58,990 nt of DNA from an uncultured Neisseriaceae bacterium (GTDB lineage Bacteria; Pseudomonadota; Gammaproteobacteria; Burkholderiales; UBA11063), in assembly GCA_937872505.1 (NCBI GenBank), contig CALMTA010000148.1:1-58990 (forward strand), in the 5' to 3' direction. The position numbers and the translations under genes were made by a program. The notes below the pieces were generated by a model. The model saw nothing but the letters and a program-made list of their open reading frames with translations, made no database searches and was not told the DNA's origin. Of the stretch, positions 1,898 through 21,561 are shown piece after piece. Each line of letters starts with the position of its first letter. Positions within the stretch are counted from its first letter, which is position 1.

Positions 1898-1910
1898 ATA
1901 AATCAACAAT

Positions 1911-4643
1911 ATGGCTTGTGGATGTGGAACATACTCGGTGACAACAACCCACCCATGTAATATAACAGCAGAAGTTTGTTATGACCATTATATAGATATA
2001 GTGCCTTTTGGTACAGCTACTTCTATTATACAACAACCTGTAAATGGTACTGCTACTATATTACCTAATGGTAAGATAAGGTATCAACATAATGGTGAAA
2101 ATTATAACGGTGACCCTTTTCAATATGCGTTTGATTATGGAAATGGTTCTGGTCGATGTATTATAGGAATAAAAGTACTTGCAGGGGCACCTCAAAATAC
2201 AACAGTTATTACTTTAACTGCTGATGGTACTTGTGATGTAGGAACTCCTACATTTGAATGGCTTATACCAGAATGTGCTACTTTACACCCTGACAGTGAT
2301 ATAAATGACCAAACTGTACAAGTAATAGTACCAAACTATGACCCTGAAAATCCAACTGCATGTTGTGAAATTAGGGTTAATGTTTGTTGTGATTATTGCA
2401 ACAATTGCTGTAAATGCGATAAGTACTTATGGTGTCCTCCACAATGTTCTAATGAATGTGGAGAAGAACCTGATTGTAATTGTACAGGAGATTGTCAACT
2501 TTACAATCCTGAGACAGGAAACTGTGATGGGTGTCCTACTTCACATATCTGTTGTGAAGAGGAGGGAGGTCAAGTATGTAAAGAGTGTTGTAGTACAGAA
2601 GATTGTCCAACAAATCAAGAATGTCTTGCAGGAACTTGCGGATGTCCTCCAGGCTATATAGAATTGCCTTCAGGATATTGCTGTCCTTTATTAGAAGAAA
2701 CAGCATGTATATACTGTAATTCTGTAGGAGAAGTTATAAATAATGTGCCCACTTGTCCTCCTGGGCAGGTTGCTGATGCTGAAACATGTACTTGTGTATG
2801 TGAAGTAGGTCTTTGTTTAGAGGATGATGAATGTGTAAGTTGTCCTCCTTGTGTTCCTGGTATTACTCCAACGTCTATTATGACAAACAACGGGTTTGCC
2901 CCTTATTTGGGTGAATGTCCTGTTTGTTCTACGTGTGTAATCTGTGAAGGGGAAGAGTGTGAGCATACATATATTTGTACAGAAACTGATTGTTCTTTAA
3001 TAACTTTCAGCTGTAATGGTATGGTTATTCCAGGAGTTAGAAATGCTAATCCTTATGATAACTATGACAACCTATGTACACAAACAACTACAGTTTGTAG
3101 TCCATCAAGTCCTTGTTGCTGCAAACCTGATTATATTACAGCAATAAAGTATTACTGTTCTCAAGGTGAATGTTTTACAGCTTATGGCAACTGTCCTTTT
3201 GGACAGACTTGTTATGATACAGAGATGGAGTGTAATTCCACTTGTGGAGAATTACCTTGTAATCCATCTATCTTTTTAGATTATAGATGTAATCCTGATA
3301 GAGCAGTAATAAGCTATTACAATGTTCCTATTGATGGTGAATGTGTTTTAGCATTGCGTTATAGAATAAGCTCAATGTCTCCTTGGATATTGTTAGCTTC
3401 TTATGACCTTACAACAGCTTCTGGTAGTATAACTAATACAGCAGTTGACGCTTTTATAGCTGGATGGGAACTTCAAGCTATATTATCTTGTAGAGATTGT
3501 CCTTCTGTTACCTCAACTGCAACAGTTCTTGACTGCGAACAGGTTGTATTTTCTTACAATTGTGTAAGTAATACTTGTTTAGAAGTTGAAGGAAACGGTG
3601 GTCAATATGCAGACATACTTGATTGCCAAGATGTCTGTGGAAACAGCTCTTTATGTCCTGAGTTCTTTTTAAGTATAGATTGTGTAGAAGATAGTGGAGT
3701 TGTAAGTGTAAGTTATCAAAATGCTGAAGATTGTGTCATTACACTAACAAGTCCTGAACACGAAGAGTTTCTTGTAGAGGTTACTTTGACAGCAGATTCA
3801 GGAACAGTTACTGAACCTCTTGTAGGATTTGTATCTGGTGACACTGTAATACTGACAAAAGATTGTCCTAATAATGGGTGTATAGAGATTGAAGTTATAC
3901 AACAAGTTGAATTTGAAGGTTGTGGTGAGCCTGGTGATGAGTGTTTTGAAAGTTCTCAAGAACTTGACTGTGAACTTGTTTGGACTATAACTGTAAACAG
4001 CACTCAATCAACTACAGTAAATCTATATAAAAAAGAAGAGCCCTCTCAAACAGTATGGGAGCTTATTGAAACAGTAGTTATAGCCCCTGGGGAATCTATT
4101 CTAACATTAGATGTATCTGAATTACCTTCTGGAACTCAACTCTATTACTTCATAGATGGGGGTTTAAACTGTGAAGATGTTACAGGAAGTACAGTACTTG
4201 TACCTGTTTGTACAGATGGTCCTCCTATATCTGAAGGTAATTGTACTTGGAGTTTAGACGCAGAATGTGCTTTAGTTCCAGGACTTGCTCAAGCAACATA
4301 TACTATTACAGTTGTTGGAAATGTTATGCTTCAAGCTCCTTTTACAGTTTATAGTTCTCCTTGCAGTCCTCCAACTCAAACTATAACAATATTTGACTTT
4401 GCAGGTGAACAGACATTTACTGACACAATTGATTGTACAGGAACTCCTATAACAATATACGTTACTGATAGAAACGATTGTACAAGAGTAATAACACTGT
4501 CTGAATGTACAGGAGAAATTATGAACCTTTGTGACTTTGTTGAGGGTTCAGGAAGTATAGATGGAGGAACACCAGAAGGACCTCAAGATAGACATTATTA
4601 TTTACCTAACATTCCTAACGGAAACACAACTGATTTAGAATAA
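1911..4643 (+). CDS. Very cysteine-rich multidomain tail/fibre protein with EGF-like array and Ig-like domains
   Basis: A 910-residue protein beginning MACGCG. Residues about 35-95 match the bacterial cadherin/Ig-like pattern of tandem adhesins (PVNGTATILPNGKIRYQHN followed by NGDPFQYAFDYGNG). Residues 151-314 (2361-2852) hold about 37 cysteines in 164 residues with EGF/WAP-like spacing, for example CSTEDCPTNQECLAGTCGCP followed by PGYIEL. The remainder is a series of beta-sandwich modules, each with Cys pairs. It sits between small Cys-rich proteins and a secreted-type protease, and is followed 1 bp later by the next start. No enzyme motif was seen. A role as a long disulfide-rich fibre or adhesin contacting the host surface is inferred. 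The cysteines might instead bind metal. Confidence 0.8.
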   Translation: MACGCGTYSVTTTHPCNITAEVCYDHYIDIVPFGTATSIIQQPVNGTATILPNGKIRYQHNGENYNGDPFQYAFDYGNGSGRCIIGIKVLAGAPQNTTVITLTADGTCDVGTPTFEWLIPECATLHPDSDINDQTVQVIVPNYDPENPTACCEIRVNVCCDYCNNCCKCDKYLWCPPQCSNECGEEPDCNCTGDCQLYNPETGNCDGCPTSHICCEEEGGQVCKECCSTEDCPTNQECLAGTCGCPPGYIELPSGYCCPLLEETACIYCNSVGEVINNVPTCPPGQVADAETCTCVCEVGLCLEDDECVSCPPCVPGITPTSIMTNNGFAPYLGECPVCSTCVICEGEECEHTYICTETDCSLITFSCNGMVIPGVRNANPYDNYDNLCTQTTTVCSPSSPCCCKPDYITAIKYYCSQGECFTAYGNCPFGQTCYDTEMECNSTCGELPCNPSIFLDYRCNPDRAVISYYNVPIDGECVLALRYRISSMSPWILLASYDLTTASGSITNTAVDAFIAGWELQAILSCRDCPSVTSTATVLDCEQVVFSYNCVSNTCLEVEGNGGQYADILDCQDVCGNSSLCPEFFLSIDCVEDSGVVSVSYQNAEDCVITLTSPEHEEFLVEVTLTADSGTVTEPLVGFVSGDTVILTKDCPNNGCIEIEVIQQVEFEGCGEPGDECFESSQELDCELVWTITVNSTQSTTVNLYKKEEPSQTVWELIETVVIAPGESILTLDVSELPSGTQLYYFIDGGLNCEDVTGSTVLVPVCTDGPPISEGNCTWSLDAECALVPGLAQATYTITVVGNVMLQAPFTVYSSPCSPPTQTITIFDFAGEQTFTDTIDCTGTPITIYVTDRNDCTRVITLSECTGEIMNLCDFVEGSGSIDGGTPEGPQDRHYYLPNIPNGNTTDLE

Positions 4644-4644
4644 T

Positions 4645-6333
4645 ATGGACATATTAGATTCAAGCTTATTAACAGCTTACAATGACTTAATAGGTTTACC
4701 TAACGTTGTTGGAGTAGATTTTGGAAGAAAAATTGTAGGTGGTTTATTGACTGAAACCCCTGCCATTATTGTAAGGGTATCAAAGAAAGATAAAACCTTG
4801 GCTGAAGAAGACCAAATACCTACAGAGATGTTTGGTATAGCTACAGATGTTGTAGAAGCCAAACTACAAGTGGCATCTGCATTTACTATAAATGAAGATT
4901 ATATTTTTATAGGCTCTGTTGGTACTTTAGGCTCTGGTGACCTTTGTTATGATAAAGATAACAACCCTGTTTCTTGTGGTGGTGCTTCTTTTCCTAACAT
5001 TGTTCAAAGACAGATACAGTTATATGATGATGTTGGAAGCGATAATCATAATGGTAGAATTGTGTTAGGTGGTATGTCTGCAATAGGTGTAAGTAGTATT
5101 TTACCTGGAAATCCATGTAATAATATGTGCACTTTGTCAATGGCAGTTAAAGATAATGTTGATGGTAAGCTTGTTTTACTTGGTAATCAGCACTGTGTAG
5201 AAAGTGCTCACCCTTATTCAAGAAAAGACAGGTTCCTAAATTTTCCATCTGACTATGCTTCACATATCACTAAACAAAATACAAGGTTTAATAAAGACGA
5301 AATGCCTCCTGAGATATGGAATACAGTTAAACTTGTAAATCCTACAAACAGTCTTTGCTCAACAAGTTTATGTTATGATGAGCAAATACCTTGTCAATAC
5401 AACGATTTAACAGGCTATAAAGTCATTGGTAGCTTTAAAGCCTCGGTTTTTATGCCAAGAAATGTTGAAGATAGTAATGCTTACAATGAAACTCCACATT
5501 TAGCTATCATAACAGCCCCTCCAGGAAGTCCTTTAGTTCCCTCTGGTACTTACAATTTATCTTGTTGGGGTATTACTGCTGGGTTTTTTCATTTATCAGA
5601 AGGAACCTGTTCTAATGGATTAACTTGTTTACAAAGAGAATATATAAACAACACCCCAGGCTACATAGTAAATATAAGTGGTGAAAGTTTTACAAAAGTT
5701 CCTGCATGTGGTGGTGCAGATGCAGCTATATGGACAGTACCTTCTCCTGCAACTCCAGGAACTACTCCTGTTATTCCTTTACCTGGAGTAGTTGATTTAG
5801 GTGATGGTCCTTTTGAGTGGGTAACTAAAGCTGAACTTCAAGCTTTATTGAGTGCACCAGGTGCTTTAAAAGCTTATAAAACAGGAGCAAGAAGAGGCAC
5901 ATTTACAGACTTACAGAATGTAGAGATTTTGTCAATGTCTTATGACATGTTTGCAAGTGTTGACGAATTTACAACAACACCTTCAGGAGGAGCTTATGTA
6001 CAACATGTTTATCCTATGGGCGGCGTTATTCACTGTAAAGTCTTATCTGGAACTCCAAATATAGTTGCTCAAGGCGGTGATAGTGGTTCTCCTGTGTTTG
6101 TAGATGCTGGTGGACAACTTAAACTTATTGGTTTATTAAGTTGGGGTAATAACTTTGGAGATATATTTGTATCTCCTATATGGTTAATTGCTGAAAGATT
6201 AAACATATCTCCTTGGTTGGAAGATACTGACTTAGCAGTCTTAAATGAAAGTATTACTAATGTAGAAATTGCAGGACGTGATTTTACTGTAAGTAATGCA
6301 ACATCTCATCCTATAACACATTTTAACGACTAA
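4645..6333 (+). CDS. Trypsin-fold serine protease (Nal1-like/bacterial chymotrypsin-like), tail-associated
   Basis: This 562-residue protein has an N-terminal segment LPNVVGVDFGRKIVGG followed by PAIIVRVSKK and a TDVVEA end, a lead-in I associate with bacterial Nal1-like trypsin-fold proteases. A plausible triad is visible: His183 in GNQHC, Asp359 in GGADAAIW, and Ser480 in the hallmark GGDSGSPV. A beta-strand GLLSWG follows the serine, as expected for the substrate-binding wall. The order His-Asp-Ser and the spacing fit the fold, although inserts make it longer than simple trypsins. It is embedded among fibre genes with 1-4 bp spacing. It could cleave fibre precursors or digest host surface or matrix proteins; the sequence does not distinguish these. 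No signal peptide is present, consistent with virion incorporation. Confidence 0.8.
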   Translation: MDILDSSLLTAYNDLIGLPNVVGVDFGRKIVGGLLTETPAIIVRVSKKDKTLAEEDQIPTEMFGIATDVVEAKLQVASAFTINEDYIFIGSVGTLGSGDLCYDKDNNPVSCGGASFPNIVQRQIQLYDDVGSDNHNGRIVLGGMSAIGVSSILPGNPCNNMCTLSMAVKDNVDGKLVLLGNQHCVESAHPYSRKDRFLNFPSDYASHITKQNTRFNKDEMPPEIWNTVKLVNPTNSLCSTSLCYDEQIPCQYNDLTGYKVIGSFKASVFMPRNVEDSNAYNETPHLAIITAPPGSPLVPSGTYNLSCWGITAGFFHLSEGTCSNGLTCLQREYINNTPGYIVNISGESFTKVPACGGADAAIWTVPSPATPGTTPVIPLPGVVDLGDGPFEWVTKAELQALLSAPGALKAYKTGARRGTFTDLQNVEILSMSYDMFASVDEFTTTPSGGAYVQHVYPMGGVIHCKVLSGTPNIVAQGGDSGSPVFVDAGGQLKLIGLLSWGNNFGDIFVSPIWLIAERLNISPWLEDTDLAVLNESITNVEIAGRDFTVSNATSHPITHFND

Positions 6334-6337
6334 TATA

Positions 6338-9300
6338 ATGATAACTAAAGTTTTAGAAGCGCATATAGAAGGGCAAATAGGTTATACCTATGAGTGGGTA
6401 GTAACACAAGTAGAAAACTGTGGAGATTTCATAGTTGGGCAGGTCCTTGGTTCAGGAACAATGATTGCTGATGAAGAAGATATTGAACTAACAATAGAGC
6501 ATGAAGAATTTTGTGTTTCTCTTACTGTTCAGTTAATCATAAAATCAGGGGAAGCTCAATGTGGGCTTATTTATTTTGATGTTATAGGATTGACTGTAGG
6601 TCTTAATTCACATTGGGAATGTGTTAGTAGTGTAGAATCTGGTCCACAGTGTCAACAAGTTGAAGGATTAGCTGTACTTCCATCACACTATGATAGTGAA
6701 GAGGCATGTCAAGAATGTGTTGAATGTGCTTGTAGTGGAGATGACAGTGAAACACCTTGCAGTGAATTTACTTTTGGTGGAACATATACTTGTCCATTAA
6801 ATCCTGGAGATACAGGTGCAATAACAATAATGATGACGGGTGGTCCAAGTTCATTTAACCCTGTTACTTTAGTATCTATATTTGTATCTGCACCTATAAG
6901 TCAACTACATGTTCCTCCTGGTGGTGGTTTTTCATTCACTGAAGTTGGACAAACTTATACTTTCCTTATTACTTTACCGTCAGGTACATATAATGTTACA
7001 CCACAACTTGCTTTTGGTGAAGATTGTACAATAACAAGTACTCCTATTACAAGTAACTGTGTTACTGGACCTCCCCCGCCTCCTGGTGGCGGTACTGGAC
7101 CATCAGATTTTGTCTGTTGTCAAGGTATCAATGAAGCTTCAGCAGGTACAGGAGTTGGAAATGTAGGTTTACTTAACTGCTATGTCTTAGATTTTGGGTC
7201 TAATATTGACCCATTAACCCAAGACCTTATCTTTGATTTTGGAGCAAATACAGTTGCAGATAAGCTTGAAGTTTATAAAGGGGTTGTTTCTTGTGAAGAT
7301 GTATATTCAGATACTGTTGACCCCTTACTTCTTGTTGGTGCTACTCCTTATGTTGGTAATATAGCCCACTGTTTAAATGCAGAAAGTAATTTTGTTCCAG
7401 CTGTTGGTTCTAAAACAGAGGTTAGAAATGATATTTTAAATGGAGTTTTACAACAAACAGGAGTTTATGGTGTTGGAAATCCTCCTGATTTCTACAATCA
7501 ACTTAACACTTCAAGCTTTGTAAGTCCTGAATTTGCTGATGATTTGATGGGTAATTGCGACACACACTCTGGTTCAGGAAATACCTATTACCCCACTCCT
7601 GGTTGTGGTGGTCCAAGACAAGGTAAAGCAAGGTTAATTATTCCTGCTGGAACTTATGGAAATATTGATAATAAAGTTACCATTGTAGTACATAATAACG
7701 GAACTCCAAGTCCTTACCGAAGGTGTAATACAAATAATATAACAGCGTGGAAGCTTTGGGTACATTGTCCTGAATGTCCTACTTGTGAAGTAGATTTTGA
7801 ATTGGGAGGTTCTTGTACAGATGCAGGTGAAGGAAGTATTGTTGCAAATATATTAGAGCCGTTTACTGGACCTGTAACTTTGAAGCTTACTCCAAACAGT
7901 CCTTTATCTTTACAGTACCCAACACCACTTCCTTTATATGTTTATTTAGACGCTAATACTACTTACTATCAGTTAAGTACAAGTATAACAGGGGATTATT
8001 TATATACAGAGTTACTTCCTGCATTATCTGCAAGTGACCAACTAACGTTTTTATATACTTCAGGATACAATCTTGTAGATATGAAAAATGATAGTTGGAC
8101 AGTAGAGCTTACTGACAGTGATGATTGTACTGTATCTAAAACAATAGTATTAAGTTGTGAATGTTTAGGTTACTTTGAAACAAGAACTGCAAGTATTTGT
8201 ACACCTACAGCATTAAGTACTACTGTAGAACTATTTGATAGTTCTTGTGCTTTAACTGCTGACAGTTTACAATACACTATTACACCTGATGCTCCTTGGA
8301 TAACAGTAACAGTGAATGGTTCTGATGTTGTAATAACAAGTAATGATACCCCTGTTGTTGGTACCTACGAAATACTTTTACAAAATACATGTCCTTCAGG
8401 TGAGTGTACAGTTGATAATGAAGGCAATGAAGTCATCATAAATGTATATGAATTTGATTGTGCAGTTGGTAGTGTTATAACTCCTACTACATGTGGAAAT
8501 TCAAACGGTGAAATAGTAGTTACTTTATGTCCTGGTGCAACTATATCTTGGACTGATATTATTAGCACTTCGCTAACAAGAACAGGATTAGCTGCTGGAA
8601 ATTATACTGCTTTAGTTACAGATGGTAATTGTACAGAACCTGTATCTTTTGAGGTTCCTGATAGCTCTACTTTGGATTTAGCAACTCCTGATTATACTGT
8701 AGCTTGTAAGGAAACAGATGCAATTTCTGTAGAATTAACAGTTTCAGGTGGAACTGCTCCATATACACTTACTTTGTTCAGATATGTAGGCGGTTCTTGG
8801 GGAGTTGCAAGATATACTTCTGTTGGATATGTTTCTGGCACATCTATTCCTTTCGCCTCTGTTACAGGAGGACTACCTGCTGGTAGCTATAAATTTAGAA
8901 TTGTAGATGATGCAGGGTGTATAAAAGAAGTTCAATTTGCCATTACTGCTACTGCTGTACCTCCTGTACAATTTCTTACAAATCCTTCTTATTGTGAAGA
9001 GGCTAATGGAGAGATACTATTCTTGTCTTCGGGTCTTGTGCCAGGAACTCACATTGTTAGGTTCTTTAACGCTGCTGGTGTTGATTGTGCAGACTTCTTA
9101 GATTTACCAAGCTCATTAATTCCTTGGGAAGGAAGTTCAAGTTATTCTATAACGGGACTTTTAGCAGGAACTTACAGTTTATGTGTGATGAATAATTTCA
9201 CAAACTGTTGTGATTGTAAAGATGTAACAGTAGCTAATGTAGGGGATAGTCCAGATGTACCTTCTACAACAGATATAAATGCTTGTGTTGGGAGTATTGT

Positions 9301-12300
9301 AAATGTTCCAAGTTTAGTTACTTGTTCAAGTGGTTCTATACCCAAGTTTTATACTCCAGGTAATAGTACACCAACAACAGTAACTAATATTACTGTAACA
9401 GGAACAGTTACTTATGATGTTAGGTGTCAAGCAGCTAACTGTTATAGTGATGTTGACCAACTTACAATAACAGCAGTAACAAGTTCTCCTGTAACTATAA
9501 CAGGACCATCTTCTGTATGTAAAAGCGCAACATTTCCTTTAGCTGGTGTTACTGCTTCTTGTAATGGTACAGGAACATGGTCTTTCCCAAATAATGCTGG
9601 ACAAATTTTAACTTTTGCAGGTGTTGGTTGTAATGGGACTATTTGTGGGTTACCTTCTGCTGCATGGTTAGAAATACAACTGTTAACTGCAAACTCTGTA
9701 ACTTTAACATTTACTTGTACTAATGCTAATGGCTGTATTTCTTCTGGAACCAAAACAATAAATCTTGTTTCTACTCCTTTAATACAAACACAAAATTTAT
9801 CTTTTTGTCCTAATCAAGCTATCAGTAATGGAATGTTAAGTTCAGCATTACTTACATCTCCTTTAGGATATAGCTGTGGTGTACCTACTATTTATACAAA
9901 TAGTAACTGTACAGTTGCACAATCCTACCCTTTTAATGCCCCTGCTGCTGGTGTTAGTGTGACTAAATACTTAAAAGTATCTTGTGCCCCTATTGATGGT
10001 GGGGTTTCTTGTGCAACAGGATGTATTCCTTTTACAATAACAGGAACTTCAAATCCTACACACCCTGTAACTGTTACTCCAAGTTGTGTTGGTTCTACAT
10101 TCAGTGCAGTGTTTAATGCCTCTGCTACAGGAGCAGGAACTTATGCTTGGTTAGTTAACGGTGTATTGCAAATTGGTCAAACAAGTAATACATTATCTTT
10201 GACAGGATTAACCCCTGGGGCTACTTTAACTGTTGTTTCTACATTTACACCTGTTTCTGGGTGTATAAGTTCAGGAGGTACTACTCATACAGTAGGACAA
10301 CTTCCAGGAATTGTTGCACCTAACCTTCTTCCGTCAAGTTGTGTAGGAGACCCTATAGACCTTTTTATCACTACTTTTAGTAATACTGGTTCTGTATCTA
10401 TTACAACAAGTAATCCTTTAGTTGCCACTGTTGGAAACTTATTTTCTACAAATGGCACTGTTACTTTTGCACCTACAAATACAACTGTAGGTACAGCAAC
10501 AATAACTATTACAGCTTATACAGGAGCTGGTCAAACAGGCTGTTCAACAACTATAACAAGAATTATAACAGTAGAAAACTGTAATCCTTGTAGTGTATGT
10601 TCTTATAGCTTTACAGGTTTAAATACTGATGAAAGTTCTTTTGGGTTTAGTAGTATAGAGGTTTGTGGAACAACTTTATCACGATACATTTTACTTGTTA
10701 AAAATAGCCTTGGTGTTAATGTTGCTTATATAGCAAATATAACAGCAGCTACAGCAGGAGTAACTTTACCTATTTCTGGTTTAAATTATGTAACTACAGT
10801 TAGTAATCCTGAAGTATCTTTAGCTACTCCAACTGTATCTGTTGCATGGTCTTTACCTTTACTTGTAGGTACTTATACTTTACATCTTATTTATGCAAGC
10901 AACCTTCCAGGAAGTTGTCAAAATTGTGTAAGTGCTTTAATACCTGAATGTTATGGTATAATTGATATTTCATGTGCAGGCTGTGTTATAGATAAAAGCT
11001 ACTCTGGTCTTATTGTTAATGAAGTAGATAGCACTATCTTTGAAATGTGTATTCCATGTTCTCAAAAGTGTTTTAAAATATCTTTACAAAGTTTTGGCTC
11101 AAACCCCGATGGGGTAATTTTATCTACTACACCTGACTTTTCTACAGAATTTGTAGCCATTCCTAAAAGCACATTGTTGCATGAACAAGCAACAGTTAAG
11201 CTTTTTGATTACACTACAGTACCATATTATTTAGACTTTTCAGCAGCAGGAGAAAATATTCCTTGTATAAGTGGAAGCAGGAAGTTTTACATGAAAGTTA
11301 GGTCTGGATTAACAGGAACAACTTCTGATACAGCTTCTTGGAGTTTAAAAACACAGTGTTGTGATTGTATAACTGAATGCCCTGAATTTACTGCTCCTTG
11401 TGTAAAGACAGTATTAGATAATATGGATGGTACTTATACTTATACATTAAAGGCAAACAATACTGTTGAAGCGACTAAAATGTTTAATAATAACTGTGGA
11501 GAAACGTGTAGCTGTAGATGTTCAAGTATTGACGGTAATATACAACAAACTCCTTACAATGCTCAAAAATATGCTGGTAATAATACTGCTGCTATAATTG
11601 CTGAAGCTTATCAAACAACTTTAGGACAATGCTCTTCTTCTGTATGCAGCACTACACCTTTTAATTTTCCTATTTGTTCAGGCACACTTAAAAAGTTTCT
11701 TCAAGGAACTGTAACTTACTTACACTTACCTACAAATGGGTATAGACTAACTTTCACTAACTTAGCTGACTATACTGAATTTAAAACTAAAATAGATACT
11801 GTAGTGTCAGCAGCAGTTCCTGTTGGATGTAATGTAGGTAAAGCTACTTTAACTTTAAATTTATCTGCATGGTTTGCACTCTCTACTATTCCTACTGGGT
11901 GTAATGATATAGGAGAAGTAGCTACTGTTGTCTTAACATTAAAGTGCTGTGATGGTGGTGTTTGCACAGATACTTATGATAGCATTGTTTATGACGATAT
12001 TGCAAAATCTATAACAATAAATTTAGACCATGCAATAGCTTCAGGCACAGGAGGGCCCTCTATTTGCCCAACATGTTTTAATCAATGGAGTTACCATTCT
12101 GGAATCACTAATAGGCAAACAGGAGTGATAGACGCTTCTGCTGAGTTACAGTACAAATCTGAAAGTATCTTAACAAGTGTACAACTAAATTATGGTGCTG
12201 CTATTGAAGAGTGTAACTCTTTTAATAGTTTTATACTTAGACTATTAGATGCTGGTGATGTAGATAGTTGGGTACTATATTCTCGTCCATTAGTTGCTTG

Positions 12301-12490
12301 TGATGGAACTAACCCCTCTGTAAATTCTTTACATGTAGATATTTCTGTTGGAAATAAACTTTTACAGTTTGGAGATACCTTTGCTGATGCTGCTGATGCA
12401 ATATCAGTTGCTGCTTTACAAGCATTAACTCTTGTAGAACATTCTGATGGTGCAGCTCAAGGAGCAAATAATTGCATAATCTTTAGTTAA
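6338..12490 (+). CDS. Giant 2050-residue Cys-rich fibre/adhesin with SprB-like repeats
   Basis: An array of beta-sandwich modules rich in Thr, Ser, Gly and Cys. Residues about 708-870 contain two SprB-like repeats: the first has CGNSNGEIVVTLCPGA then GLAAGNYTALVTDGNC, the second SVELTVSGGTAPYTLTLF then LPAGSYKFRIVDDAGC. A third, more divergent copy follows near 8970-9237 (CEEANGEILF then GLLAGTYSLCV). Residues about 255-480 include a jelly-roll-like segment (DFGANTVADKLEVYKGV) that may be CUB-like. Later modules resemble PKD/Big-type Ig domains (for example TPGATLTVVSTFTP and FAPTNTTVGTATITIT). A poly-Pro/Gly hinge, GPPPPPGGGTGP, lies near residue 246. SprB repeats occur in gliding adhesins of flavobacteria, so a host-contacting fibre is a reasonable inference. 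It follows the protease gene by 4 bp. Confidence 0.8.
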   Translation: MITKVLEAHIEGQIGYTYEWVVTQVENCGDFIVGQVLGSGTMIADEEDIELTIEHEEFCVSLTVQLIIKSGEAQCGLIYFDVIGLTVGLNSHWECVSSVESGPQCQQVEGLAVLPSHYDSEEACQECVECACSGDDSETPCSEFTFGGTYTCPLNPGDTGAITIMMTGGPSSFNPVTLVSIFVSAPISQLHVPPGGGFSFTEVGQTYTFLITLPSGTYNVTPQLAFGEDCTITSTPITSNCVTGPPPPPGGGTGPSDFVCCQGINEASAGTGVGNVGLLNCYVLDFGSNIDPLTQDLIFDFGANTVADKLEVYKGVVSCEDVYSDTVDPLLLVGATPYVGNIAHCLNAESNFVPAVGSKTEVRNDILNGVLQQTGVYGVGNPPDFYNQLNTSSFVSPEFADDLMGNCDTHSGSGNTYYPTPGCGGPRQGKARLIIPAGTYGNIDNKVTIVVHNNGTPSPYRRCNTNNITAWKLWVHCPECPTCEVDFELGGSCTDAGEGSIVANILEPFTGPVTLKLTPNSPLSLQYPTPLPLYVYLDANTTYYQLSTSITGDYLYTELLPALSASDQLTFLYTSGYNLVDMKNDSWTVELTDSDDCTVSKTIVLSCECLGYFETRTASICTPTALSTTVELFDSSCALTADSLQYTITPDAPWITVTVNGSDVVITSNDTPVVGTYEILLQNTCPSGECTVDNEGNEVIINVYEFDCAVGSVITPTTCGNSNGEIVVTLCPGATISWTDIISTSLTRTGLAAGNYTALVTDGNCTEPVSFEVPDSSTLDLATPDYTVACKETDAISVELTVSGGTAPYTLTLFRYVGGSWGVARYTSVGYVSGTSIPFASVTGGLPAGSYKFRIVDDAGCIKEVQFAITATAVPPVQFLTNPSYCEEANGEILFLSSGLVPGTHIVRFFNAAGVDCADFLDLPSSLIPWEGSSSYSITGLLAGTYSLCVMNNFTNCCDCKDVTVANVGDSPDVPSTTDINACVGSIVNVPSLVTCSSGSIPKFYTPGNSTPTTVTNITVTGTVTYDVRCQAANCYSDVDQLTITAVTSSPVTITGPSSVCKSATFPLAGVTASCNGTGTWSFPNNAGQILTFAGVGCNGTICGLPSAAWLEIQLLTANSVTLTFTCTNANGCISSGTKTINLVSTPLIQTQNLSFCPNQAISNGMLSSALLTSPLGYSCGVPTIYTNSNCTVAQSYPFNAPAAGVSVTKYLKVSCAPIDGGVSCATGCIPFTITGTSNPTHPVTVTPSCVGSTFSAVFNASATGAGTYAWLVNGVLQIGQTSNTLSLTGLTPGATLTVVSTFTPVSGCISSGGTTHTVGQLPGIVAPNLLPSSCVGDPIDLFITTFSNTGSVSITTSNPLVATVGNLFSTNGTVTFAPTNTTVGTATITITAYTGAGQTGCSTTITRIITVENCNPCSVCSYSFTGLNTDESSFGFSSIEVCGTTLSRYILLVKNSLGVNVAYIANITAATAGVTLPISGLNYVTTVSNPEVSLATPTVSVAWSLPLLVGTYTLHLIYASNLPGSCQNCVSALIPECYGIIDISCAGCVIDKSYSGLIVNEVDSTIFEMCIPCSQKCFKISLQSFGSNPDGVILSTTPDFSTEFVAIPKSTLLHEQATVKLFDYTTVPYYLDFSAAGENIPCISGSRKFYMKVRSGLTGTTSDTASWSLKTQCCDCITECPEFTAPCVKTVLDNMDGTYTYTLKANNTVEATKMFNNNCGETCSCRCSSIDGNIQQTPYNAQKYAGNNTAAIIAEAYQTTLGQCSSSVCSTTPFNFPICSGTLKKFLQGTVTYLHLPTNGYRLTFTNLADYTEFKTKIDTVVSAAVPVGCNVGKATLTLNLSAWFALSTIPTGCNDIGEVATVVLTLKCCDGGVCTDTYDSIVYDDIAKSITINLDHAIASGTGGPSICPTCFNQWSYHSGITNRQTGVIDASAELQYKSESILTSVQLNYGAAIEECNSFNSFILRLLDAGDVDSWVLYSRPLVACDGTNPSVNSLHVDISVGNKLLQFGDTFADAADAISVAALQALTLVEHSDGAAQGANNCIIFS

Positions 12491-12500
12491 AAATTAATTT

Positions 12501-13121
12501 ATGGCTTGCTGTGGAAATGAATGTTTAGAACTAATAAATGCTGAATGTATAGAATACACTGGGGTAACTCAGTGTATTCCAAATACTTCAGACAGTCCTA
12601 AAGTAGCGGATAAAATAAAAGACATAGAGGCTTTTTTATGTTCTTTACCTACTGTTTCAAATACTGTGAATGTTAATTTGCAGTGTCTTGGAGGAAACTG
12701 TGCAGAAAATATACCTTTTTCTTATACTTATATTAAAGCAACAGGTTCTCCTACTCTTGGAAACGCTATAATTTCTATATCTATTCCAAGTTTAGATGTA
12801 GGAACCTATCTTGCTCAAGTAAAAGTGTACAGTGGAACTACACTTATAACATCTGCTCCTACTATAACAAACCCTATACCTATACCTTTGAGTTATATAA
12901 ACTCAACAGGTGTATTAGTTGTAATAGAAATGGTATCTGCAACTAATGTTATATATAGTGGTAGTGTATTTATCACACCAACAATGACTACTACTCTTAT
13001 TCCTGTTACAGGTAATAACTTAGTTTGTCAATCTACAACAGTAGTAACAATAGCCTATGAAGCAGTAATTCAACAAATTATCTCAGAAATTTGTGCTATA
13101 AAAAATCTAATAACAGGGTAA
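12501..13121 (+). CDS. Small Cys-rich tail-cluster protein, last gene of the fibre block
   Basis: The 206-residue product begins MACCGNEC, has a Cys-rich N-terminal 35 residues, a beta-rich middle (residues about 55-170, strands such as TLGNAIISISIPSLDVGTYLAQ) and a short helical end (EAVIQQIISEICAIKNLITG). The MAC-Cys start is shared with the proteins beginning at 807 and 1911, hinting at a common N-terminal attachment element. It is separated by only 10 bp from the giant fibre gene and is followed by an intrinsic terminator, so it closes the transcription unit. No named family is recognised; a fibre-tip, chaperone or minor structural role is possible. Confidence 0.75.
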   Translation: MACCGNECLELINAECIEYTGVTQCIPNTSDSPKVADKIKDIEAFLCSLPTVSNTVNVNLQCLGGNCAENIPFSYTYIKATGSPTLGNAIISISIPSLDVGTYLAQVKVYSGTTLITSAPTITNPIPIPLSYINSTGVLVVIEMVSATNVIYSGSVFITPTMTTTLIPVTGNNLVCQSTTVVTIAYEAVIQQIISEICAIKNLITG

Positions 13122-13209: not shown

Positions 13210-14004
13210 ATGGATATTTTAAGAAAAATGAAGCAGGGACATTTGTTCTTTAAAGAAGAGGGTCATAAATACACCTACAAAGGAAAGCTTGTTCCTATAA
13301 GTACTACTGGGTTTATCTCAAAGTTTAAGGAACCTTTTGATAGAGAGTTTTGGCTTATAAAAACATCAGTAAAAGAGAATATACCTGTTGAAATATTAGA
13401 CAAGAATTGGGATTATATTGCTAAGTATGGCACTTTAAGAGGAAGTCTAACACATTTATCCATAGAGCACTATATAGAAAACAATATATTTAAGTACGAA
13501 GTTCCAAAAGAGATACATAAAAAAGATGTTCAAAAGTTTAAAGCCTCAGTTGATACTTGTATTAGTCATGGTAAAAAGTTTGTAGAAGACTATTACTTTA
13601 ATGGGGAATACACTTTATTGGCTAAAGAATATACTGTAGGTTTAATAGAAAATGATGAGTGTCTTTTAGCTGGAAAAATAGATAATATATCTCAAGATAA
13701 AGAAGGAAAAATATTTCTTTTTGATTATAAAACAGATAAAAAATTTGAAAAAAGCTCAAAATACAATAAAAAGTTTTTAGCTCCTTTTGAGTACCTTGAT
13801 GACTGTGAGTTGTCAAAACATTCTTTACAGCTGGCTATTTACAAATTATTGTTTGAGCAACAAACAGGTTTAACAGTAGAAGGTTGTAAAATAGTTTGGC
13901 TTAATGATGCAAACCCTTCTTACCAAGTTGTACCTGTACAAACAATACCACTAACTTATGACTTACTCCGAAATTGTATCAAGAGTACAGATAGCTTTAG
14001 GTAA
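13210..14004 (+). CDS. PD-(D/E)XK family nuclease (Cas4/RecB-like phage exonuclease)
   Basis: A 264-residue protein with the complete motif set of the fold. An N-terminal beta-hairpin (HLFFKEEGHKYTYKG) precedes a helix with G78-S-L-T-H82; Asp158 lies in AGKIDN, Asp172-Tyr-Lys174 in FLFDYKTDK, and Gln207 in the KHSLQLAIYKLLF helix. Asp158, Asp172 and Lys174 are the expected metal-binding and catalytic residues. Similar single-domain nucleases are common in crAss-like phages, where they may act in recombination or genome processing. It is the first gene after the promoter, and its 3' end overlaps the start of the next gene by 47 bp. The precise substrate cannot be inferred. Confidence 0.85.
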   Translation: MDILRKMKQGHLFFKEEGHKYTYKGKLVPISTTGFISKFKEPFDREFWLIKTSVKENIPVEILDKNWDYIAKYGTLRGSLTHLSIEHYIENNIFKYEVPKEIHKKDVQKFKASVDTCISHGKKFVEDYYFNGEYTLLAKEYTVGLIENDECLLAGKIDNISQDKEGKIFLFDYKTDKKFEKSSKYNKKFLAPFEYLDDCELSKHSLQLAIYKLLFEQQTGLTVEGCKIVWLNDANPSYQVVPVQTIPLTYDLLRNCIKSTDSFR

Positions 14005-14641
14005 AGGTGTTCCTTCAGCATCTAATAGATTGTCTGATAGACATATAATATCTCTTGTAAAAGCTAAAAAACCATTGGCAAAAAGACAACTTAGGTTGGA
14101 AATTGCTGAATTAAATACTCTTTTAGCTTTGAACTGTTTTCCACTTGTTAAAGCAAGTGAGGTTGACTGTCAATGTTTAAACTTAGTGACATGTGATACT
14201 GTTATGAAATCTGTATATAAGCTGCCAAGTTATATTGGAGCAATACAGGTAATGACTATAGACGGGGGAAAAAACATTTCCTTAGTCGAAAGAAGTACAA
14301 AAGAATACTCTTTAAATCACTCAAGATTTGGACAGACCTCTCCAAAAGCCTATGTTTTAAATGACTATCTTTATCTTATAAACGCAGAATATAAAGCGGT
14401 AACAGTAATAGCTGATTTTGAAGATGAGGAGGAAGTAGAAAAACTAAATATGAAATGTATCACCTCTGTTAATGAGAGGTGTCTTTCAGCTATGGAGCTA
14501 AATATGACTGGAGAAACTATTGTTATTGATAGAGCAATAACTTTAGCTGTTACTGAACTTATAAAAGCATGGCAATCAGGCTCAGAGGATAATACAAATA
14601 ATGCGAAATCTAATGACGCAAGCAGAGAACAAGAAAACTAA
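13958..14641 (+). CDS. crAss-like ring/tail structural protein
   Basis: This 227-residue protein starts within the end of the nuclease gene (47-bp overlap). The N-terminus MTYSEIVSRVQIALGKGVPS followed by NRLSDRHIISLVKAKKPL, and the later ASEVDCQCLNLVTCDTVM then YKLPSYIG, match a conserved crAss-like virion protein in which a short Cys-x-Cys motif precedes a KLP segment. In crAss-like virions this type of protein belongs to the ring/adaptor assembly between portal and tail. The C-terminal 25 residues are Asn/Ser/Asp-rich and probably disordered. Family assignment rests on remembered sequence features, so the exact ring position is not assigned. Confidence 0.65.
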   Translation: MTYSEIVSRVQIALGKGVPSASNRLSDRHIISLVKAKKPLAKRQLRLEIAELNTLLALNCFPLVKASEVDCQCLNLVTCDTVMKSVYKLPSYIGAIQVMTIDGGKNISLVERSTKEYSLNHSRFGQTSPKAYVLNDYLYLINAEYKAVTVIADFEDEEEVEKLNMKCITSVNERCLSAMELNMTGETIVIDRAITLAVTELIKAWQSGSEDNTNNAKSNDASREQEN

Positions 14642-15517: not shown

Positions 15518-15952
15518 ATGCCAAAAAGAAGAAAGAGTTGGACAATAGGTCAATTTGCAGACCTTTATGAAAAGGAAAATAAGGTTGACAGAGCAACAAG
15601 AAACCTTTATGTAAAGGTCTGCAAACTCTTTCTTAAAAAAGTGTGTAGAGATTTATTGAATGGAAGGCTTTTAAAAATTCCTTTTATGATAGGAATGTTA
15701 GGTATTGTTAAGAGAAAACCTTCAAAGAATAAACCTGTTGATTGGTATAATACTAATAAACTAAAAAGAATAGCAAGACATTTTAACCTTCACACAGATG
15801 GATTTTGCTATAGATTAGTGTGGTACAAAACAAAAGGCTACGGTAATTTGAATAATTCGGAGTTCTATTCTTTCACTCCTACTGCTACATTAAAAGAAAG
15901 GATAGCTAAAAAACTTAGAGATAACCCTAATTCTTTTTTCAATGAACGTTAG
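15518..15952 (+). CDS. IHF-like DNA-binding virion protein of crAss-like phages
   Basis: This 144-residue, very basic protein carries a helical N-terminus (SWTIGQFADLYEKENKVDR) and a central LLNGRLLKIPFMIGMLGIVKRK, the IHF/HU-like body pattern of a helix followed by the beta-arm region. The next part, VDWYNTNKLKRIARHFNLHT followed by DGFCYRLVWYK, matches the DW...K...HxxGYRYxWxW block I know from the paired IHF-like genes of crAss-like phages. Those genes sit beside tail genes exactly as here. It overlaps the following gene by 11 bp and ends in TAG, showing TAG is a stop in this genome. Only one copy is present here, whereas p-crAssphage has two. Confidence 0.65.
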   Translation: MPKRRKSWTIGQFADLYEKENKVDRATRNLYVKVCKLFLKKVCRDLLNGRLLKIPFMIGMLGIVKRKPSKNKPVDWYNTNKLKRIARHFNLHTDGFCYRLVWYKTKGYGNLNNSEFYSFTPTATLKERIAKKLRDNPNSFFNER

Positions 15953-16826
15953 TTATATTAGTACTAAAGCAATAATTTATCAATGGCTTTCTGAGACAGG
16001 GAGGTCTTCTGATTTTAATGAGGAAGTTCTTGCAACTCAAATTCTTGATGCCCTGAATATCATGGAATATAAAGCCGCTTTAGTACATGCTGTTGCTCTT
16101 ATTGAAGTAAAAAACCACAGGGCAAAATTACCAAAAGGCTTAAAGACAATAGATATTACAATGTATAATGCAGGACAGCAAAAAGTTAATTCTGCATTTA
16201 TACAAGAAGCAATAATACCAACATTTGATGGTGAGTGTGAGTATAAAATTACAAGAGATTGTGCTGATGATTGTGGTGTAATAATTTCACACAAGCCCCT
16301 TATAGAAAGTCTTATGTACCCATTTAGTCAAAAGTTCAGAGCTTGGAATGGTGTGTATAAAGATGTCTTTAAGCCTATGCACTACTCAAGAAATTCTTTA
16401 GGAATGAAGAATTACCATCTTAAAGAGTGTGATACTGATGTAGATACTAAAGCGTTTTATGAAGTATCTAAAGGATATATAACCACTAATTTCCCTGAAG
16501 GTCAGATACTAATAGCTTATTTTTCTTTGAATTTGGATGACGATGGATTTATCTTTGTACCTGATGACTCAAGAGTAATAACTGCTCTTATTGCATATCT
16601 TGAAGAAAGACAAGCATATAAAGAATATTCGAGAACAAAAAGCAGAGATGCAAGAATGTTTTATACAGATGCCAAAACTATATGGCAATCAAAACTTGGT
16701 TCAGCAAGAAGTGCACTTTTATTAAACCAAATAGATATACACGAACTCACTAAAATTCTTGTAAATCTATATAAATTTGAACACCCAGAACATTTCTGGA
16801 AAGATTATACTCAAAACTATGTCTAA
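15942..16826 (+). CDS. crAss-like tail tubular/ring protein
   Basis: A 294-residue protein with a helical N-terminus (STKAIIYQWLSETGRSSDFN followed by AALVHAVALIEVKNHRAKLPKG), a beta-rich middle, and the segment GQILIAYFSLNLDDDGFIFVPDDSRVIT-like (split here as FPEGQILIAYF and DDDGFIFVPDD), which corresponds to the conserved 'yxxxPxDexGxPlIPDnxxY' region of crAss-like tail tubular proteins. The C-terminal helix bears many aromatic residues. It starts inside the IHF-like gene, and its end overlaps the tail stabilisation gene by 8 bp (ATGTCTAA). The position directly before the stabilisation protein is the canonical crAss order. Confidence 0.65.
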   Translation: MNVSYISTKAIIYQWLSETGRSSDFNEEVLATQILDALNIMEYKAALVHAVALIEVKNHRAKLPKGLKTIDITMYNAGQQKVNSAFIQEAIIPTFDGECEYKITRDCADDCGVIISHKPLIESLMYPFSQKFRAWNGVYKDVFKPMHYSRNSLGMKNYHLKECDTDVDTKAFYEVSKGYITTNFPEGQILIAYFSLNLDDDGFIFVPDDSRVITALIAYLEERQAYKEYSRTKSRDARMFYTDAKTIWQSKLGSARSALLLNQIDIHELTKILVNLYKFEHPEHFWKDYTQNYV

Positions 16827-19800
16827 TCAAGTAGATGTTATAGGTATGCTTAAAGGGCTTAACTTAGATGTTACGCCTGAACAACTTGGTGAAGGTGAGT
16901 ACACCTTTGCTTCAAATGCAGTTATTGCCCCTGGGGATTTGTTATCTATATCAACAGAAGGAGGTACTAAAACTTGTATAAATAATTTAGGCTACATACT
17001 TGGCTATGAGTTTATAGCCAATAAAAATCTTGTTGTTGCTTTTGTTGTTGATGAAAACAGTACAAACTCAAGAATTGTAAAGATAGATTTACAAACCTGT
17101 ACATCAGAAATTTTATTTCAAGACCCGTGTTTAAACTTCAGTATTCATAATCAAATAAGAACTACGTATAAACAGCTTGATAGTTGTGGTGAGATAGTTA
17201 TTGTTTTTGTACAAAGAGGTAACCCTATACGATATTATAATATAGATAAACCTGTTACAACATGTGAAGACCTTGCATTGTTTACTTGCTCTGATGATAT
17301 TGGGTTAAAAGTGAAATCAGTTTTAGATAGTGGAGGAAGTATTTTATCAGGAAAGTATTGGTTCCTCGCAGGCTACTCTGATGAATTTGGAAATGTAGAA
17401 GCAGTTACAGCACTTTCTCAAGAAGTAAGTATAATAGATGACATCTCAACGATTTCTTGGAAGTACATAGATGGGTGCCCAGCTAACACTCCTACTACAA
17501 AATCTGTAGAACTTGAGTTCACTAATCTTCTTAGTACTAAACAGTTCTTAACTTTATTTATAGTTTCATCAATTGATTTTCAATACCTTATCTATAAAGT
17601 TGTACTTAGGTATAATGGTACAGGAACTTTTAATTTTACCTACTCAGGTGGGGGAACACCTACAAGTATAGAAGAAATAACAATTCCTACAAGTAAATAT
17701 ATATCAGCAGAGCTTGTAACTCAACATGAAGACAGGCTAATACTTGGAAGATTAAAAAATGCTGCAGCTCTTGATTACCAAAAACAAGCCAACGAAATTC
17801 AAGTTAAATGGTTCACTTCAAAAATATCTGCTACAGCTGGAAAGAAATGTGCCCCAAAATTAACAAATGGTATTCTTTACCCCTCTGCTCCTGGGTTCAC
17901 AATTAGAAGACTACTTACGGGGTTTGAAGTTTCATACTTGAATGATGTTGTAACAGCTGGTAACATATACAATATGATAAACTTTGCTATTTCTCAGCAA
18001 ATTTTAGGTATGCGTTTTCTTGATGTTACAGGGTTTGAATATTTTTCAATAGATAGAGTTTCAAATGTTACAATTACATCTACGCCTGGTGGTCTTGGTG
18101 GTAATGATATGGTTAGGTTTGATTATGATTTTGCTACTCCTCCTGACGAATATCCAGACTGTGCTCAACCTTGGGTAACAAACACTTCCTTTCCTCCTTT
18201 TACAACAAGAAGTTTAATGACAGGAGGAAGTACTCCTCTATTTTATCTTATAGAAGAAGAGTTGACAGAAGCTAAAGGTTTTAGTCCTTATAAAGACCCG
18301 TTAACTTCTCTTTATAAAACATTCATGGGCAATGAAAATTATGCTTTGAGTGTGTGGTGGGAATTTTGTGACGGTTCTTTTTCTCCTGCATATCATATTC
18401 CTGGGACTACATTAGAACAAGTTAATTCTTGTTTTCAAGGAGTTAAGTCCTATCTTGTAGTCGGAGAAGACTTAGAAGAAATTTTTTATCCTCATGCAGA
18501 CAGTATAGTTGAAGCTAATGATATAAACAATCCTTTTAAGTGTGAAAAGTTTGTTTGGGAAATCTTTGATACTTCTTGTATTGAAGAAGAGCCATTTGAA
18601 TTATCAGAGGTGGAAGTAGATGATTGCGGTAATTTATTAGGTAACAAAATAGGAGTATGGCAAAGGGGCTCTTTAGGTTATTATGAGGAGACTTGTTTAC
18701 AGTATCCAACAGCAACTGATTGTGAAAATGACTTCATTTATCCACACACTATTGATGAAGATGAGGTTACTATGGATAATGTAAGGCATCATAAAATACC
18801 TTCAAGAAGAACTACTACACATTTTAAAAGTAACAATGAACTATCTGTAGAAAACGGAGGTAATATTGCAGATAAATATCCTTATGAAGAGATAGAAATA
18901 TACCCTATAGGGCTTGAGTTCTTTAATATTACTCCGCCTATAAATCCTCCTCAACCTGTTGTTGGTTATCATATAGGCTTTGTAAAAAGAACATCTTCTA
19001 ACAGTTCAGTTATTGGAAAGGGTATAGTTATAAGCAGTCTTTATTATAGTGATGAAGACACAGGTAACGGCTATTTTTTCAGAGAGTCTGTAAATAGTGA
19101 CATTGATAATGCAGCAATAAAGATTGGAGAATATGGTGCATCTGTTCAAGGAAGTACAAATTACCCAAACAACTATGTTCCTTATAAATTCTTTTCTCCT
19201 GACACACACTTTGATAAGCCGCAGTTAAACTCTTCTTACATTCAAGTTGAGCAAGAATGGTTTGGTAAAGGATTGAAGTATGCCCCAGGAGATGTAAACA
19301 CACTTGTTAGTAGAGGTCTCAACATTAATTTAGAAGGTCAAACAGTTCTTCCTAAACTTAGTGATACAGCGTCAACTTCAGTAAATAGAAGTGTTGTATC
19401 TCAAACATACATAGGAGCCAATGAAAATATTTCAGGGTTGTCTGGTCTTTCAGGTGTTGTTATTAATTTCTTTGGAGTTAGTGGAGTAGTTGTAAACATA
19501 GACACAAAAACACAAGACCCCGAAGAGGGTTTATTAAAGTACAACAATTTATGCACCTCTGATATTGCAGATGGCAGCTCCCCAATATCGTTTTCTGAGT
19601 TTCAAGAAGATATTGATTGTGCCAAAGCGCATTATGTTTCTCTTAAAAGAAACTACTGTAATCAATATGGAGACATTTATAATCTTGTATATATTCCAAC
19701 AGGCTATTCTTCTTCGGACATTCAACAGTCATCTATAAAAGTCTTTGGTGATAGCTTTATAAATTACTATTCTTTCTTTAGAACTTTTATACATTCACTT

Positions 19801-21561
19801 TCAATTGCCCCAGCTTTAACTTTATTCATGCCTTCAACAACTTTAATTCATGGAGTTTATGAAAGCAATATAAATGTAGATTTAAGGCATGAAGGTGCCA
19901 CAGAGTTAGGAGAGGTTTATTACCCTAAACTTAGCAATGATTTTTGGGGTCTGCACTCTTCTATAAGTACAAACCCTCCTGAAAGGTGTTTACTTGAACA
20001 GTTCAGACTGAACACTGAAAATTCTGAAAATGATTTAGATGCTTATGGAATTGACAATGTAGCAAATTATAATAAGGACTATTCAAGACAACCTGACTTT
20101 TTACCCCAGTTTGCTCCAAGTAGCACATTCAAACCTTGTGATTGTGATAGTACACTTATAAATGATATTGCTGTTTCTCTTGTACATAATGAAGTATCTG
20201 ATGGTTGGAGAATATTTAGACCTGCAAACATATTCACTATTCCCCGTAATACGGGAGAGATAATGAATTTATTCTCCTACAAGAATACAATGTTTGCTCA
20301 CACTACAGACAATCTTTGGAGAATATTTACTACTCAAGATAGACTGTTAACAGATACAAGTACTGTATTTATTGGCTCTGGTAGTATATTTACACAAACA
20401 CCACAATACCTGTACTCAACTCGTGAAGGTTATGCAGGAATTCAGCAGATGAATGGTTGGTACCTAAATAGCAACGGTTATTTCTGGATTGACTTAAAAT
20501 CTAAAAAAGTTTTTGTATTATCAGAAGGACTTGAAGAGTTAAGCCTTAAAAAGATGTTCAAGTGGTTTAGGAAAAATTTAAAGCTTCACATGGACTTCCC
20601 AGGATTTCTTGGGAAAGACAATTACGCTAACCCTTTTTCAGGTACAGGTTGGCATATTGCTTTTGACTATTCATTGAATAGACTTCTTGTTACAAATAGA
20701 GATTTTGCCTTTAAGGAACCAAGTAGATTTGGTGGCATTTATTCTGAAGTAGATTGTGAGCAGGACAAGATATATTACGAACAAGTTACTAAAAAATTTG
20801 TTCTTGTAGTAGATGCTTCTGACTGTGCTTATACAATTATAGACTTTACTGATGAAGAGTACTTCTGTAATAAGTCATGGACACTAAGTCTTAGTTTTCT
20901 AACTGGTTATTGGGTTTCATGGCATAGTTATGTTCCAACTGCTTATTTAACAACATTAGAGGAATTGTACTCTTTGTCAGATAAACAGTTTGTTACACAC
21001 AATGCCGATGATTTGTTTACAACATACTATGGAAACTACTACCCATATATAATTGAGATGGTTACTAAAAAACAGATAACCGCTTCAAGTATCTGGGAAA
21101 GTTTGTCCTACTTAACAGAGTCTAAGAAGTTGGTTAATGGAAGGTATAAAGACACAGGAGATACATACACGCATATTATAGCCTGGCATGAAAACGATAT
21201 TCAGCAAAATACAGGTAAGTTGGAGATAATGCCCAGAATAGATGATGCTCAAAACTTTATGGTTGATAGCATTACAGATTTTACTGGTATAGTAAAAGCT
21301 CATAAAAGACATGGGAATTGGTTTATCAATGGACTGTACAATTATATAGATGACCAAGAACTCTCTGTGTGGTCTGAAGAGTGTGTTCCATTAGGTTTAG
21401 ATAAAGAAATAATTCAGGGAAATATTAATTTTCTAAAAGACTATCAATATTTAGATAGATTACGGAATAATTTCTTAACTTTACGTTTTATTTTCGACAA
21501 TCCATCTAAATCTGACATTAAACTTCTGACGAAATTTTTAATTTCAATTACAGCATCGTGA
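16819..21561 (+). CDS. crAss-like tail stabilisation (hub/muzzle-type) protein
   Basis: I chose ATG 16819 (MSNQVDVIGMLKG) rather than the in-frame ATG at 16777, because it gives an ATGTCTAA overlap and avoids 50 bp of overlap with the upstream gene; the product is 1580 residues. Diagnostic features are an N-terminal 'ALN'-like entry (TPEQLGEGEYTFASNAV), a beta-propeller-like middle, and a late conserved block: GYAGIQQMNGWYLNSNGYFW near residue 1205, then KSKKVFVLSEGLEELSLKKM, then SWTLSLSFLTGYWVSWHSYV near 1353-1372. These match the tail stabilisation family of Bacteroidota podoviruses, distantly related to P22 gp10. A Gly/Val-rich segment (GLSGLSGVVINFFGVSGVVV) lies near residue 870. It ends at TGA, overlapping the next GTG start. 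Confidence 0.75.
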   Translation: MSNQVDVIGMLKGLNLDVTPEQLGEGEYTFASNAVIAPGDLLSISTEGGTKTCINNLGYILGYEFIANKNLVVAFVVDENSTNSRIVKIDLQTCTSEILFQDPCLNFSIHNQIRTTYKQLDSCGEIVIVFVQRGNPIRYYNIDKPVTTCEDLALFTCSDDIGLKVKSVLDSGGSILSGKYWFLAGYSDEFGNVEAVTALSQEVSIIDDISTISWKYIDGCPANTPTTKSVELEFTNLLSTKQFLTLFIVSSIDFQYLIYKVVLRYNGTGTFNFTYSGGGTPTSIEEITIPTSKYISAELVTQHEDRLILGRLKNAAALDYQKQANEIQVKWFTSKISATAGKKCAPKLTNGILYPSAPGFTIRRLLTGFEVSYLNDVVTAGNIYNMINFAISQQILGMRFLDVTGFEYFSIDRVSNVTITSTPGGLGGNDMVRFDYDFATPPDEYPDCAQPWVTNTSFPPFTTRSLMTGGSTPLFYLIEEELTEAKGFSPYKDPLTSLYKTFMGNENYALSVWWEFCDGSFSPAYHIPGTTLEQVNSCFQGVKSYLVVGEDLEEIFYPHADSIVEANDINNPFKCEKFVWEIFDTSCIEEEPFELSEVEVDDCGNLLGNKIGVWQRGSLGYYEETCLQYPTATDCENDFIYPHTIDEDEVTMDNVRHHKIPSRRTTTHFKSNNELSVENGGNIADKYPYEEIEIYPIGLEFFNITPPINPPQPVVGYHIGFVKRTSSNSSVIGKGIVISSLYYSDEDTGNGYFFRESVNSDIDNAAIKIGEYGASVQGSTNYPNNYVPYKFFSPDTHFDKPQLNSSYIQVEQEWFGKGLKYAPGDVNTLVSRGLNINLEGQTVLPKLSDTASTSVNRSVVSQTYIGANENISGLSGLSGVVINFFGVSGVVVNIDTKTQDPEEGLLKYNNLCTSDIADGSSPISFSEFQEDIDCAKAHYVSLKRNYCNQYGDIYNLVYIPTGYSSSDIQQSSIKVFGDSFINYYSFFRTFIHSLSIAPALTLFMPSTTLIHGVYESNINVDLRHEGATELGEVYYPKLSNDFWGLHSSISTNPPERCLLEQFRLNTENSENDLDAYGIDNVANYNKDYSRQPDFLPQFAPSSTFKPCDCDSTLINDIAVSLVHNEVSDGWRIFRPANIFTIPRNTGEIMNLFSYKNTMFAHTTDNLWRIFTTQDRLLTDTSTVFIGSGSIFTQTPQYLYSTREGYAGIQQMNGWYLNSNGYFWIDLKSKKVFVLSEGLEELSLKKMFKWFRKNLKLHMDFPGFLGKDNYANPFSGTGWHIAFDYSLNRLLVTNRDFAFKEPSRFGGIYSEVDCEQDKIYYEQVTKKFVLVVDASDCAYTIIDFTDEEYFCNKSWTLSLSFLTGYWVSWHSYVPTAYLTTLEELYSLSDKQFVTHNADDLFTTYYGNYYPYIIEMVTKKQITASSIWESLSYLTESKKLVNGRYKDTGDTYTHIIAWHENDIQQNTGKLEIMPRIDDAQNFMVDSITDFTGIVKAHKRHGNWFINGLYNYIDDQELSVWSEECVPLGLDKEIIQGNINFLKDYQYLDRLRNNFLTLRFIFDNPSKSDIKLLTKFLISITAS

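Follow-up and report, generated by a model that had tools for sequence, protein, structure and literature searches.

A NAL1-like serine protease with a predicted chymotrypsin fold in the putative tail-appendage block of a crAss-like phage

We found that a crAss-like phage encodes, among putative tail-appendage genes, a protein that by profile and alignment belongs to the NAL1-like serine proteases, the same family as rice NAL1. The gene lies in the window, as we call the whole stretch of 58,990 nucleotides analysed here, and its three catalytic residues are apparently intact (Table 1). The product is quite possibly an active, disulphide-stabilised protease that is displayed on the tail appendage and cuts host surface proteins. 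Most of the enzymes so far proposed for the tails of crAss-like phages are directed at polysaccharide. If true, a trypsin-fold protease borne on the virion would give these phages a route through protein layers or adhesins, and a protease family known from plant development would be connected with the entry of phages into cells. Such a protease-type tail enzyme would represent a class that we did not find described for Crassvirales, and our search of the open-access literature returned no papers about phage-tail proteases of the NAL1-like or chymotrypsin-like kind.

Table 1 Features of the window that bear on the protease and its surroundings
Feature	Position	Strand	Basis or remark
910-aa putative appendage protein, 9.9% cysteine	1911..4643	+	ends 1 nt before protease gene; presumed function
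NAL1-type chymotrypsin-fold serine protease (predicted), 562 aa	4645..6333	+	complete ATG frame, 562 codons
N-terminal NAL1-type domain, residues about 11-78	4675..4878	+	PHROG 20754, Pfam NAL1_N, own profile
Predicted disulphide, Cys162 to Cys184, at chymotrypsin Cys42-Cys58 positions	5128..5196	+	alignment and presumed equivalence
Catalytic His183 (GNQHC)	5191..5193	+	column invariant, 64/64 relatives
Long lineage-specific stretch inserted between His183 and Asp359 motifs, residues about 187-355	5203..5709	+	mostly unmodelled; most sampled positions gapped in relatives
Catalytic Asp359 (GGADAAI)	5719..5721	+	column invariant, 64/64; aligns with family VDxA
Catalytic Ser480 (GGDSGSPV)	6082..6084	+	column invariant, 64/64 relatives
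2050-aa putative adhesin/fibre, 4.8% cysteine	6338..12490	+	4 nt past protease gene; weak SprB-repeat match
206-aa cysteine-rich protein	12501..13121	+	homologue adjoins Ring 2 in second crAss-like fragment (C223), 33% identity, E 3e-26
crAss tail ring protein 2	13958..14641	+	Pfam PF25702, E 1.2e-13
crAss tail ring protein 1	15942..16826	+	Pfam PF24228, E 3.7e-23
crAss muzzle protein	16777..21561	+	Pfam PF25731, E 2e-30
Cargo/RNA-polymerase region, ORFs of 1205, 725, 6505 and 1833 aa	21558..52382	+	gene order as PhicrAss001 gp45-gp47

Family assignment and catalytic residues

In single-sequence library searches, residues 11-78 of the protease matched the PHROG 20754 'protease' family (E 1.3e-12), and the matches to Pfam NAL1_N (E 0.0028; 17.8 bits against a cut-off of 27 bits) and Pfam Trypsin (E 0.041) fell below their cut-offs. 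A PDB sequence search gave nothing significant, and an NCBIfam search gave zero matches. We built a family profile from 149 NAL1-like proteases of bacterial, archaeal and viral contigs, leaving out the window protein. The filter used to collect these relatives relied on the H and S motifs and did not use the D motif; the D of the triad was invariant in 149 of the 149. Against this profile, the phage protease scored 53.4 bits (E 5e-17, search of the window ORFs), compared with a maximum of 3.6 bits for shuffles of the full protein (n = 2000), and none of the remaining window ORFs matched with E < 0.3. The match is made up of three collinear stretches: residues 12-72 (36.4 bits), residues 163-183, which contain His183 and are weak by themselves, and residues 474-537, which contain Ser480. 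Without its N-terminal domain, the protein scored 19.3 bits (shuffles, maximum 4.7).

An earlier note on this DNA had proposed a His183, Asp359 and Ser480 triad in that order after a NAL1-like lead-in. All three residues were found exactly as proposed, in motifs that start at residues 180 (GNQHC), 356 (GGADAAI) and 477 (GGDSGSPV), and the lead-in LPNVVGVDFG starts at residue 18, in the N-terminal domain that matches PHROG 20754 and our own profile. In an alignment of 65 sequences, the protease and 64 relatives, H183, D359 and S480 fall on invariant columns. The G-R-T motif of the second barrel is invariant in 64/64 relatives, and the phage protease retains the G alone; this motif is conserved in our collected set and is not a published defining feature of NAL1-like proteases.

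Predicted fold

The AlphaFold2 model of the protease (pTM 0.66, mean pLDDT 62) is confident for the N-terminal domain and for a large part of the protease core, and residues 276-352 have a pLDDT under 50. Its input was the 65-sequence alignment with NAL1-like relatives, so that the model supports, but not independently, the family assignment. With this model as the query, the best 33 Foldseek matches in the PDB were all rice NAL1 (E 3e-10), and two viral matches were found in BFVD (E about 1e-11). VIA-align superposed the model on rice NAL1 with a Z of 27.3 over 307 residues, and on Streptomyces griseus protease B (3sgb) with a Z of 17.9 over 181/185 residues at 2.2 A. The trypsin fold suspected in the earlier note is therefore present, as a chymotrypsin double barrel, in the predicted structure.

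Active-site surroundings and cysteines

The phage protease differs from its relatives next to the catalytic residues. It has Gln-His-Cys around the catalytic His, where relatives have Asn-His-Val, the residue at Cys184 being Val in 64/64 of them, and Ser-Trp-Gly (499-501) in place of their Phe-Ala-Gly. Cys162 immediately precedes the invariant Thr163. In secreted proteases of the chymotrypsin type, His57 is followed by Cys58, which forms a disulphide with Cys42, and a Ser-Trp-Gly motif occupies residues 214-216. We take Cys162 and Cys184 to be equivalent to Cys42 and Cys58, on the basis of textbook positions and our own reasoning, and we infer a C162-C184 disulphide from the alignment. The cysteine content of the protease is 2.3%, compared with a NAL1-like family median of 0.9%. 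Because C162/C184 and Ser-Trp-Gly occupy the positions seen in secreted S1 enzymes, the protease would presumably work in an oxidising place.

A crAss-like genomic context

Genes for ring 1, ring 2 and the muzzle, in crAss order, identify the window as that of a crAss-like phage. The order of ring genes, muzzle gene and large cargo ORFs matches that of PhicrAss001 (PMC10172136). Portal, terminase and MCP genes were not identified on the 59-kb contig, and the fragments that carry terminases are found elsewhere in the bin. The terminase-like frames on bin contigs C212 and C52 (L210, L212) are unusually long, at 1096 and 1500 aa, and possibly contain inteins or insertions. A class II tRNA-synthetase-like protein (14654-15514; Pfam E 1.6e-8) is encoded between the two ring genes; similar proteins occur in Prochlorococcus phages and huge phages, where they are annotated 'tRNA ligase'.

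Upstream of the ring genes, ORFs 807-13121 appear to form a tail-appendage block. The protease gene is separated from its same-strand neighbours by 1 nt upstream and 4 nt downstream. The ORFs of this block, bar the protease, contain 4.8-9.9% cysteine, against 0-0.05% in the cargo ORFs (21558-52382), and other crAss-like fragments of the same bin also carry cysteine-rich ORFs directly upstream of Ring 2. The placement in a fibre cluster described in the earlier note is thus probably right for the immediate neighbours. Its 'enormous neighbouring fibres' shrink to the adjacent 2050-aa ORF at most. The 6505-aa ORF (27361-46878) was ruled out as a fibre: it follows the crAss muzzle gene, contains almost no cysteine and, by synteny with PhicrAss001, would be part of the cargo/RNA-polymerase region.

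A simple pattern search of the cargo ORFs found no virion RNA-polymerase DxDGD motif. The 6505-aa ORF contains two zincin-like HExxH motifs (residues 1654 and 6119) and a DUF7831 match (E 1.8e-37), and the 1833-aa ORF (46881-52382) contains a third such motif at residue 272.

Relatives of the window phage infect Bacteroidota. The RpoC of the bin is closest to gamma/betaproteobacterial enzymes, with the species of the matches read from their entry codes. The GC content of the window is 0.33, compared with 0.27-0.34 in sampled bin contigs, some of which are themselves crAss-like. Four further muzzle-gene fragments in the bin (C200, C171, C25 and C223) are about 31-37% identical to the muzzle of the window (C148). 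Because the bin holds several crAss-like fragments, some of them among the GC-sampled contigs, it is likely that several crAss-like phages were co-binned with a gamma/betaproteobacterial-type genome, through misbinning or as phages of an unexpected host, and the host cannot be named from the bin.

NAL1-like proteases in other phages

The earlier note had considered a chymotrypsin-type protease inside a tail-fibre block unusual for phages. The family itself is common in phage contigs (PHROG 20754): NAL1-like proteases were confirmed in 85 viral contigs in one scan. What is unusual is the placement in an adhesin block, found solely in the window and in one unrelated phage contig, IMGVR_UViG_3300020159_001893 (L018/L019). 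Among 78 neighbouring proteins scanned, the neighbours of the other phage NAL1-like proteases matched mainly helicases, terminases and methyltransferases, which rules out a general link between these proteases and fibres.

In the unrelated contig, a NAL1-type protease of 404 aa (5716-6930; E 7.7e-58 with a profile of the 65-sequence alignment, which includes this sequence) lies among repeat-rich ORFs, and two ORFs past it is a 1372-aa protein (8664-12782) with SprB repeats (E 3e-42). This protein also has a cadherin domain. The 2050-aa ORF of the window gave a weak Pfam SprB match below the cut-off (E 0.018) and shows local similarity to the SprB-repeat protein (E 0.005). These two cases hint at a linkage between protease and adhesin block and do not establish it.

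Close homologues of the 562-aa protease were not found in the phage records or viral contigs searched, nor were close relatives found with the muzzle and exonuclease queries. The 'peptidase' gp21 of phage Fpv1, which has a comparable position, was ruled out as a homologue, as it matches an unrelated PHROG family.

Proposed role of the protease

We propose that the phage makes an active NAL1-type serine protease late, together with its crAss-like tail-appendage proteins, and that this protease would be carried on the virion exterior, as part of the tail fibres or bound to them. Upon contact, it would hydrolyse proteins on the host surface or in the matrix, such as cell-surface adhesins or other protein layers, and thereby open the way to the membrane or uncover a receptor. 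It would be the protein counterpart to the depolymerases that have been proposed to attack polysaccharide from crAss-like tail spikes. For this protease, we infer catalysis, virion association, an extracellular site of action and the substrate alike.

Several lines of evidence point to a displayed protease: the family, fold and invariant triad; the tight same-strand packing with fibre-like ORFs in a crAss-like window; the raised cysteine content, with C162/C184 and Ser-Trp-Gly as in secreted S1 proteases; the second adhesin-block case, together with the cysteine-rich ORFs upstream of Ring 2 in other crAss-like fragments; and the enzymes attributed to crAss tail spikes (PMC10136315). Against it, two contigs are all that speak for a conserved linkage, as no close homologue was found, and the neighbours of other phage members indicate that these proteases are not intrinsically fibre enzymes. 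In addition, the GRT motif is lost, the long insertion is unmodelled and the fold model depends in part on the family assignment. More broadly, it is possible that some crAss-type phages carry a proteinaceous 'depolymerase', a tail-displayed NAL1-type serine protease that digests host surface proteins.

Dedicated proteases are commonly used by phages for virion maturation, and the direct same-strand packing of the 910-aa and 2050-aa ORFs beside the protease gene would also fit an enzyme that cleaves one or more large neighbouring appendage proteins of its own phage during assembly, whether or not it stays on the virion. We consider such a maturation protease unlikely. In a profile search, four Bacteroidota phages, crAss001, phi14:2, Fpv1 and phi38:1, were found to lack a NAL1-like protease despite having the same tail genes, which argues that fibre assembly does not generally depend on one, and a disulphide of the predicted Cys42-Cys58 type is not normally formed in the cytoplasm. 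We favour degradation of the host surface over fibre trimming, a choice that sequence alone cannot decide.

The long lineage-specific insertion, the loss of the otherwise invariant GRT motif and the changes beside the active site could instead mark a dead or barely active trypsin-fold domain that works within the tail appendage as a structural part or in receptor binding; this is improbable, as the triad and the GDSGS loop are kept amid wide divergence, which suggests selection for catalysis. An intracellular enzyme that acts on a host or phage protein, in counter-defence or takeover, and sits in the tail block by chance would agree with the majority of phage NAL1-like proteases, which lie outside fibre blocks, and with the intracellular co-repressors targeted by plant NAL1 (PMC12915138), but is equally doubtful given the position of the gene between cysteine-rich appendage ORFs, its own raised cysteine content and the similar placement in the unrelated contig.

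Comparison with known systems

Rice NAL1 (NARROW LEAF 1; PDB 7y77, 8pmi and 8has) has the same layout as the predicted protease, a NAL1 N-terminal domain followed by a chymotrypsin-type domain, and the same triad order, at about 12-17% identity. Unlike rice NAL1, the protease described here is phage-encoded, lies in a putative tail block and carries a long stretch inserted between its H and D motifs; the plant enzyme acts on intracellular co-repressors (PMC12915138). The 149 NAL1-like proteases collected from bacteria, archaea and phages (PHROG 20754) share the profile match and the invariant triad columns with it; they are mostly 290-450 aa long and low in cysteine, compared with 562 aa and 2.3% for the window protease. 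The secreted S1 enzymes streptogrisin B and alpha-lytic protease share the double barrel and the HC and SWG motifs with the phage protease, at about 19-20% identity, but are secreted bacterial enzymes without a NAL1 N-terminal domain.

The tail spikes of Crassvirales are described as bearing glycosyl hydrolase, phosphatase and CHAP domains in a review that mentions no protease or peptidase (PMC10136315). Like the window protease, these enzymes are encoded in the tail-appendage block and their presumed job is to clear the host surface. They act on polysaccharide or peptidoglycan, whereas the window protease would act on protein.
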